Origin: Pseudobdellovibrionaceae bacterium
GTDB taxonomy: Bacteria > Bdellovibrionota > Bdellovibrionia > Bdellovibrionales > UBA1609
DNA length: 64,000 bases
Direction: 5' to 3'
NCBI GenBank assembly: GCA_023954155.1
Contig: JAMLIO010000009.1
Location: 1-64,000, forward strand
Positions 55,620 to 56,698 of this stretch are shown piece by piece (position 1 is the stretch's first letter; each line of letters begins with the position of its first letter). The position numbers and the translations under genes are program-made. The notes beneath the pieces were generated by a model that ran no database searches, was not told where the DNA came from, and saw nothing but the letters and a program-made list of their open reading frames with translations.

Positions 55620-55800
55620 CCCTTCCGCCATTTTATATAGGGTTTTCTTATTTATTCCCTTTCTATATAGAGATAGACCTCCAGCAAGCGGGACGCGTTT
55701 TGCTCGAAGAGCAAATGCTGGCAGAGCCCATGGATGGGCGTGTCTGTTTCTATATAGAAAGGGAATAAATAAGAAAACCCTATATAAAATGGCGGAAGGG
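55620..55800. repeat. Palindromic element, copy 1 (52-bp perfect arms)
   Basis: Left arm 55620-55671 and right arm 55749-55800 are perfectly complementary over 52 bp. The stem continues inward to 55678/55742 with two G-T pairs. The enclosed core folds further: CCAGCA (55681-55686) with TGCTGG (55716-55721), TTTGCTC / GAGCAAA (55699-55715) with a GAA loop, and GCCCAT / ATGGGC (55726-55739) with a GG loop. The whole would form a long stem ending in a branched head. It starts eight bases after the pcrA stop codon. No open frame is inside. Confidence 0.95.
55665..55755 (+). repeat. 91-bp conserved core, copy 1
   Basis: This core matches 56557-56647 in the same orientation with four substitutions in 91 positions. 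Two of these change a G-T pair in copy 1 (55672/55748 and 55674/55746) to a Watson-Crick pair in copy 2, so pairing is kept. It contains three inner helices described under the full element. It is the only part of the element whose sequence is shared closely between copies. Confidence 0.95.
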
Positions 55801-55914
55801 GCTTCTGGGACGTTTTTGGGCTTTGCTATAAATTTGTTAAACAGTTTGCCCCCTTATTTTTAGGCGAAAAGTTGGCCTAGCTTTTGATATGTCTATGTTG
55901 TGGAGGGTTTGACA

Positions 55915-56400
55915 ATGAAAACTCTAGGTATAAGCAAGACAGCATCTTTATTTTTAAAGCTTGTATGTGTCTTATCATTCGTATCTTTAACTGCCTGTGA
56001 TGATGGTGGAGGCGGACTTAGCGCAAGCCAACATCCTCATTTGCCACCTGCGGGTACTATTGAGGCGTGCAGATACCAACAGCAAAATCAGTTTTTTGTA
56101 GGTATTCCAGGAAATCCTCATTGCCCTTACCAAGGACAGGCTATCAATGGCCAAGTTGAGGCTTTTGCTCAGATCAATTTTAATGCAGGTTTTGAAATCG
56201 ACTTTGGACTTCAGTACAACGACGCTTGTCCCCCAGGACAAATGCCTGTTTACGAACACATCCAAGGTAATCTGATTCATACTCGTTGTGACAATATTGG
56301 TGGCTCTTATGTGGATTACGTGTTTTTCCAACATCATAATAGCAGCAACTGTGCTGGTGCTTTTGCTGGAGATAAACGCTGTATCCCTAATCCGCTCTAA
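55915..56400 (+). CDS. Small Cys-rich lipoprotein between two palindromic elements
   Basis: 161 residues from the ATG at 55915, which has GGAGG eight bases upstream; a GTG five codons earlier is less likely. The signal peptide ends in LTAC, a lipobox, followed by DDGGGG, a flexible acidic/Gly linker that may direct sorting. The mature part has six further cysteines (in EACRYQ, PHCPYQ, DACPPG, TRCDNI, NCAGAF and RCIPNP), enough for three disulphides, and many aromatic residues. No family is recognised. It is the only gene between the two palindromic elements and has its own terminator, so it forms a single-gene unit. Surface exposure is plausible but not shown. Confidence 0.75.
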   Translation: MKTLGISKTASLFLKLVCVLSFVSLTACDDGGGGLSASQHPHLPPAGTIEACRYQQQNQFFVGIPGNPHCPYQGQAINGQVEAFAQINFNAGFEIDFGLQYNDACPPGQMPVYEHIQGNLIHTRCDNIGGSYVDYVFFQHHNSSNCAGAFAGDKRCIPNPL

Positions 56401-56432
56401 GTTCCGCAACACATTTTATTTTGGTTCCCTAG

Positions 56433-56479
56433 CCTTCCAGAATTCTCCCTCCCCCCCTTGGTTCTGGAGGGCTTTTTTT
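56433..56479 (+). terminator. Terminator of the Cys-rich lipoprotein gene
   Basis: CCTTCCAGAA (56433-56442) pairs with TTCTGGAGGG (56462-56471) over 10 bp with one G-T pair, followed by a run of seven T (56473-56479). The 19-base loop is C-rich and could alternatively pair with the G-rich stretch at 56529-56555. Confidence 0.9.
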
Positions 56480-56481
56480 AT

Positions 56482-56698
56482 AAGTCCAGCATGGGGATTT
56501 TCCCTAGAGTTTTTCTTATTATTCACCTGGGGGGGGGTGGAGGGGGGTGAGCGGGCATATAGAAACAGACCTCCAGCAAGCGGGACGCGTTTTGCTCGAA
56601 GAGCAAATGCTGGCAGAGCCCATGGATGGGCGCGTCTGCTTCTATATGGATAGGTGAATAATAAGAAAAACTCTAGGGAAAATCCCCATGCTGGACTT
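56482..56698. repeat. Palindromic element, copy 2 (47-bp perfect arms)
   Basis: Left arm 56482-56528 and right arm 56652-56698 are perfectly complementary over 47 bp. The left side then carries a 28-base G-rich insertion (56529-56556) that has no partner on the right. An inner stem of 14 positions (56557-56570 with 56634-56647, one mismatch) closes the 91-bp core (56557-56647), which has the same three inner helices as copy 1. The arm sequence differs from copy 1 but about three quarters of positions align (for example ATTTT...TAG.G.TTTT.CTTATT.ATTC). It starts three bases after the lipoprotein terminator and ends 60 bases before the oligopeptidase start. Confidence 0.95.
56557..56647 (+). 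repeat. 91-bp conserved core, copy 2
   Basis: Direct repeat of 55665-55755, 892 bases downstream in the same orientation, 87 of 91 positions identical. The inner hairpins are all unchanged; the four differences are in the closing stem and the adjacent strand. Confidence 0.95.

Follow-up and report, generated by a model that had tools for sequence, protein, structure and literature searches.

Two palindromic elements in a 64,000-nt stretch of DNA from a Pseudobdellovibrionaceae bacterium, referred to here as the window, are copies of a small, dispersed and previously undescribed element family of Bdellovibrio-type bacteria. The family combines a conserved structured core with outer arms that are private to each site and perfectly, or nearly perfectly, complementary within it. 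These arms are probably made, and made perfect again after mutation, by foldback (template-switch) copying of the flanking DNA that is templated by the element's own hairpin. The first copy covers positions 55620-55800 and the second copy positions 56482-56698 of the window, with the following features:

55620..55671, + strand: copy 1, left (5') outer arm of 52 bp, fully complementary to the right arm
55665..55755, + strand: copy 1, structured core, 91 nt, covariance model R1, 106.8 bits
55726..55739, + strand: copy 1, hairpin P5 with GGA loop, GCCC-ATGGAT-GGGC
55749..55800, + strand: copy 1, right (3') outer arm, 52 bp
56482..56528, + strand: copy 2, left outer arm of 47 bp, fully complementary to the right arm
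56529..56556, + strand: copy 2, G-rich insert in the left arm, 28 bp, partnerless on the right, seen directly in the sequence
56557..56647, + strand: copy 2, structured core, 91 nt, covariance model R1, 106.4 bits
56618..56631, + strand: copy 2, hairpin P5 with GGA loop
56652..56698, + strand: copy 2, right outer arm, 47 bp

The palindromes had been noticed in a sequence-only reading of the window, and a letter-by-letter check confirmed that the two cores match at 87 of 91 positions in the same orientation and that the arms of 52 bp and 47 bp are perfectly complementary within each copy. The inner helices described in that reading were likewise borne out, as the core folds far better than shuffled sequences (z-scores of -4.8 as RNA and -5.3 as DNA). 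The statement that the arms of the two copies are alike at about three quarters of their positions applies to the approximately 36 inner nucleotides only, whereas the outer 20 bp or so are unrelated. The left arm of the first copy starts 8 bp past the stop codon of a UvrD/PcrA-type helicase gene, and an intrinsic-terminator-like hairpin is located upstream of the left arm of the second copy. The region between the two copies (55900-56400) contains a small lipoprotein-like ORF of 166 aa with a signal-peptide-like start and a cysteine.

Copy number and distribution of the element family

A BLAST search with the core detected 19 copies in the genome that contains the window (G000; 2.44 Mb in 15 contigs) and 21 copies in that of Bdellovibrionaceae bacterium UBA6776 (G011). 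The covariance model R1, which was built from 30 copies, yielded 20 copies in G000, about 88 in UBA6776 and 1 to 14 in each of seven further genomes. According to this model, the element is present in 9 of the 47 family genomes and in 34 of the 141 order genomes, single-contig genomes included, and its distribution is patchy. Altogether, 109 distinct copies were gathered, most of them with inverted arms, so that the family is neither limited to the two copies of the window nor composed of otherwise armless cores. Arms of less than 15 aligned bp were found in about 20 of the 109 copies, mainly in degraded ones of UBA6776.

The designation of the element as unrecognised held true at the level of Rfam, since no family reached its gathering score with the window element or the 20 loci searched. 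With respect to a viral origin, no exact match to the core was detected in IMG/VR, and an exact-pattern scan of contigs returned UBA6776, one chance match inside an Elainella gene and nothing else. Five cores, most of them degraded, are arranged in tandem at a spacing of approximately 120 bp beside a truncated HNH gene (L027:484-1047), and a purine riboswitch lies near an element copy at L160:2840-2937 of genome G120, to which it is probably unrelated.

Structured core and possible interaction with CsrA

The core comprises the helices P1, formed by the inner arms, P2, P3, P4 and P5, all five of which are supported by covariation. Covariance modelling revealed that 97.6% of the cells are standard pairs and that 18 of the 34 pairs have changes in both partners; a pairing statistic as good as that of the core was reached by 0 of 500 shuffles. 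These data clearly indicate that a structured core of approximately 65-91 nt is selected for its fold on the + strand. Of the two explanations offered by the sequence-only reading, that of a selected single-stranded structure applies to the core but not to the origin of the long arms. On the + strand, G-T mismatches outnumber A-C mismatches in the arms (75 versus 39; binomial p 0.001) as well as in the core helices (about 23 versus 7), and the + strand therefore appears to be the functional single strand, either as RNA or as single-stranded DNA.

The trinucleotide GGA was present in the P5 loop of 108 out of 109 distinct copies, and G000 as well as all 31 good family genomes have a gene for CsrA. 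The P5 hairpin resembles a CsrA site and can be regarded as a lead, as a GGA loop and a CsrA protein in the host are necessary and not sufficient for such a function. The element shares the GGA in a short hairpin loop with CsrA-binding RNAs of the CsrB/RsmZ type and with the TwoAYGGAY motif (RF01731); it differs from them in that it has one GGA hairpin instead of two or many, in that its CsrA binding is putative and in that it stays below the TwoAYGGAY gathering score, the match of copy L001 being sub-threshold (35.5 bits at a cut-off of 43). Rfam matches to MIR families were rejected as long-hairpin artefacts. In genome G103, the P4 stem varies from copy to copy while its pairing is kept, and in the copies L172 and L181 it is lengthened by an apparent intrinsic-terminator sequence (AAAAAGCCTGAAGC...GCTTCAGGCTTTTTT), suggesting that inner stems are exchanged as well.

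Outer arms are perfect within and private to each copy

Every copy carries arms of its own, which mostly measure 25-100 bp. The paired positions amount to 102/102, 95/95, 82/82, 83/84, 52/52, 51/51 and 50/50 in copies of G000 and to 58/58, 57/57, 53/53 and 51/51 in copies of G103, and comparable arms were found in G055 (46 paired and 3 gap positions) and G097 (41/41). Over 40 nt, the two arms of one copy are 85-100% identical in G103, with a mean of 96%. Between copies, the identity of the outer arms drops to 60%, compared with 57-58% for shuffled letters, whereas that of the cores is 87% in G000 and 93% in G103. When G000 was searched with the outer arms of the tested copies, the matches were restricted to the two arms of the respective copy, with the exception of one subfamily. 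Accordingly, the outer arms are private to each site, where they match each other fully or almost fully, and arms without common sequence are not the product of gradual compensatory change.

The exceptional subfamily of G000 consists of the copies L009, L010, L012, L013, L015 and L016, which share their arms and mostly carry 1-4 one-sided mismatches per approximately 47 bp; several copies of UBA6776 also have arms in common. Arms can thus travel with the element. The copies L009, L010, L012 and L013 have 75-205 bp of common flank on the left side only, with a variable left end, which may be a case of flank transduction.

Gene ends captured in the arms

The source of the arm sequence can be read from copies that overlap a gene. 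The right arm of L005 (G000:C4, approximately 92339-92566) includes the final 26-27 bp of an OppC/DppC permease gene in convergent orientation. These base pairs specify the C-terminus AFDPKMKK*, and solved homologues show a conserved counterpart (GDGLRDALDPK) to the encoded end DGLRDAFDPK. The left arm of this copy is an inverted copy of the oppC/dppC gene end and starts directly past the stop codon at which the other gene terminates. In L133 of genome G027, which belongs to another genus, the last 7 nt of a tRNA-Cys gene are part of one arm and their inverse is part of the other. Weaker cases are L011, with 7 bp of a QueD-type gene in the arm, and L131, with 6 bp of pgk. An arm that equals the inverted native flank, as expected from foldback or template switching, was thus seen strongly in two copies only (L005 and L133).

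The native side is located 3' of the element in all four overlaps, and from these two strong and two weak cases we infer that copying probably proceeds from the 3' flank to the 5' arm. Among the copies examined, no left arm overlapping a convincing gene was found; an apparent overlap of the left arm of L072 with an ORF was rejected, as the ORF is spurious. Several left arms start 1-9 bp past a stop codon, which is what would be seen if the copied sequence had replaced the spacer as far as the gene. The native 3' side and the left arms that abut stop codons are in keeping with foldback copying while the complementary strand is being made.

Insertion sites and candidate mobility genes

The G000 copies examined lie between genes, and the element is commonly found just past stop codons. 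The earlier observation that no transposase or recombinase gene adjoins the palindromes is correct for the window, but in UBA6776 elements flank most of the HNH-endonuclease genes. This genome contains approximately 33 copies of a gene encoding a 266-aa HNH endonuclease (P0001; PF01844 over the cut-off; for instance at L021, L026 and L065-L084), and the elements, in arrays of up to five cores, are often located about 40 bp past the stop codon. The HNH gene of UBA6776 seems to be a mobile unit in its own right. Upstream of each of its copies, approximately 270-300 bp are conserved, and the sequence past the stop codon is hardly conserved; relatives of P0001 were detected in 36 of the 59 genomes searched, with up to 40 per genome.

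As a general mobility enzyme of the element, the HNH endonuclease was rejected: G000 has two distant relatives only, G015 has none along with 14 element copies, and the HNH copies inspected in G046, G025, G036 and G041 have no adjoining element. REPs are tied to RAYT (Y1) transposases, and the respective family PF01797 was not found in G000 but in 30 of the 47 family genomes, carriers and non-carriers of the element alike. Reverse transcriptase (RVT_1) was not found in the carriers G015, G017, G022, G026 and G059, some of which are incomplete assemblies, so that the gene does not accompany the element in all carriers, contrary to what would be expected of a retron or a similar reverse-transcribed element. 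A single weak RVT_1 gene of G000 (G000:C2:213961-214521) is located about 9 kb from L006. The spotty occurrence of HNH, Y1 and RVT_1 among the carriers indicates that none of them is the general agent.

A clean empty site was not found, as the loci of G104 that are orthologous to four G103 copies have no recognisable intergenic sequence in common with them. In G103, the copy L179 and a second element lie between convergent genes, the orthologous stop codons of which are 4 bp apart in G104. This locus shows that approximately 500 bp were gained or lost and that the arm was either brought in or lost in G104.

Origin and renewal of the arms

Foldback copying, the reading that we favour, would operate during synthesis of the complementary strand of the core, when the new strand passes through the 3' flank and then through the core. 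The short inner arms, of which approximately 12-15 bp are conserved across copies, would fold the new strand back on itself, and the polymerase, with its own product now as the template, would move outward by 20-100 nt and then switch back to the original strand. The 5' arm would thereby become an inverted copy of the 3' flank, and later template switching of the same kind would make mutated arms perfect again. The proposal of the sequence-only reading that arms are corrected by hairpin copying is supported by the locus-private arms and by the inverted gene ends of two copies; a slow drift of the arms is not. Transition and transversion counts over all arm pairs were set aside, most pairs being non-homologous arms. 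Renewal can be followed at L065 and L066 of UBA6776. The two loci have common sequence from 280 bp upstream of the HNH gene to approximately 310 bp downstream, so that they descend from one insertion. A comparison of their arms showed 9 paired positions with changes on both sides (three of the nine being transversions) and 1 position with a change in one arm only. These concerted changes favour correction in place.

It is rather improbable that selection on a long double-stranded RNA stem, as part of a structured regulatory RNA, has perfected the arms by compensatory mutations. The strong covariation of the core, the excess of G-T over A-C mismatches and the CsrA-site-like P5 loop are in line with such an RNA, but the outer arms are unrelated and nevertheless of Watson-Crick type for up to 102 bp without wobble pairs, whereas gradual compensation would give related arms and G-U intermediates. 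Moreover, gene ends inside the arms would not be explained, and for the outer arms the evidence speaks against this mechanism. It is highly improbable that the family is an ordinary non-autonomous element of the MITE or REP type, with the long arms as its own terminal repeats. Small size, dispersed intergenic location, lack of coding capacity and the conserved inner part of the arms would suit such an element, but the inner 12-15 bp alone are common to the copies instead of constant terminal inverted repeats, the outer arms differ between copies and G000 is without a Y1 transposase.

A further alternative is that arms are re-made only at transposition, when a hairpin intermediate, formed by single-stranded DNA or in self-primed reverse transcription, allows one arm to serve as the template of the other, and that they decay in place afterwards. 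One-sided mutations do pile up in the shared-arm subfamily, many copies are perfect as if recent, and target-primed synthesis would yield the native side in the 3' flank. This restriction to transposition is nonetheless unlikely in view of the RVT_1 and Y1 results and of the concerted changes of L065 and L066, which occurred despite duplication together with the flanks. The one-sided mutations indicate that correction is not immediate, and renewal in place by foldback copying and re-making at transposition may both act.

Tolerance of long palindromes

SbcCD is a hairpin-cutting nuclease, and the Mre11 nuclease is the yeast homologue of SbcD. No match to SbcD (TIGR00619) over the cut-off was obtained in the 47 family genomes, while the gene was detected at the same E-value in 13 of 14 control genomes. 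The SbcC model also recognises other SMC-type ATPases and is uninformative at low scores. The carrier bacteria therefore appear to be devoid of SbcCD, with the absence of SbcC being less firm, and the palindromes may persist because this nuclease is apparently missing. In yeast without the Mre11 nuclease, inverted duplications form the major class of rearrangements, with foldback priming as one proposed route (PMC10622511).

Comparison with known systems

That template switching makes and repairs perfect stems is already established, since it creates and maintains hairpins (PMC8794818) and has been studied in an E. coli system (PMC7202029). The element resembles these quasipalindromes in that inverted copying, for instance on the nascent strand, makes stems and makes them perfect again. 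There, however, the events are sporadic and affect unrelated sites, whereas here they are systematic at the copies of one dispersed structured core, with arms of up to approximately 100 bp that include gene ends. Long perfect arms with apparently active maintenance are also known from the mitochondrial inverted repeats of Nematomorpha, which have a mean length of 43 bp and reach 142 bp and for which repeat conversion or template switching was proposed; these repeats are located inside genes and have neither a conserved core nor a dispersed family (PMC6649704). The hairpin elements of sponge mitochondria are likewise dispersed, intergenic and patchy, but belong to other genomes, and the accessible part of the respective report does not describe a conserved multi-helix core with perfect arms that are private to the copy (PMC2800124). 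REP/REPIN sequences and prokaryotic MITEs (PMC3116915, PMC3733652, PMC10969869) are similarly small, non-autonomous intergenic palindromes with many copies; REPs are palindromes of 20-40 bp, in contrast to the private arms of the present element, the host of which, G000, has no Y1 match. In the literature searched, no dispersed element of bacteria was found that combines a structured, conserved core with perfect arms private to the locus.

Implications for the Bdellovibrio-type bacteria

Tentatively, and with some doubt, the family might be regarded as a mobile element whose folded core programmes foldback synthesis at insertion, so that each new copy would write the inverted 3' flank of its target as its own 5' arm and would combine an inherited centre with locally written ends, in an order of predatory-type bacteria that apparently is without SbcCD. 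A long perfect stem is usually taken to prove that selection has acted on an RNA through compensatory mutations. In the present order-wide family, a conserved core is enclosed by perfect stems that are unrelated in sequence, and arms have captured the ends of genes and of a tRNA. The element family thereby allows the origin of hairpins by template switching to be tested directly in a bacterium and links this origin to a missing hairpin nuclease, SbcCD, of the Mre11-Rad50 type. Additionally, it represents an undescribed family of structured repeats with a possible connection to CsrA.
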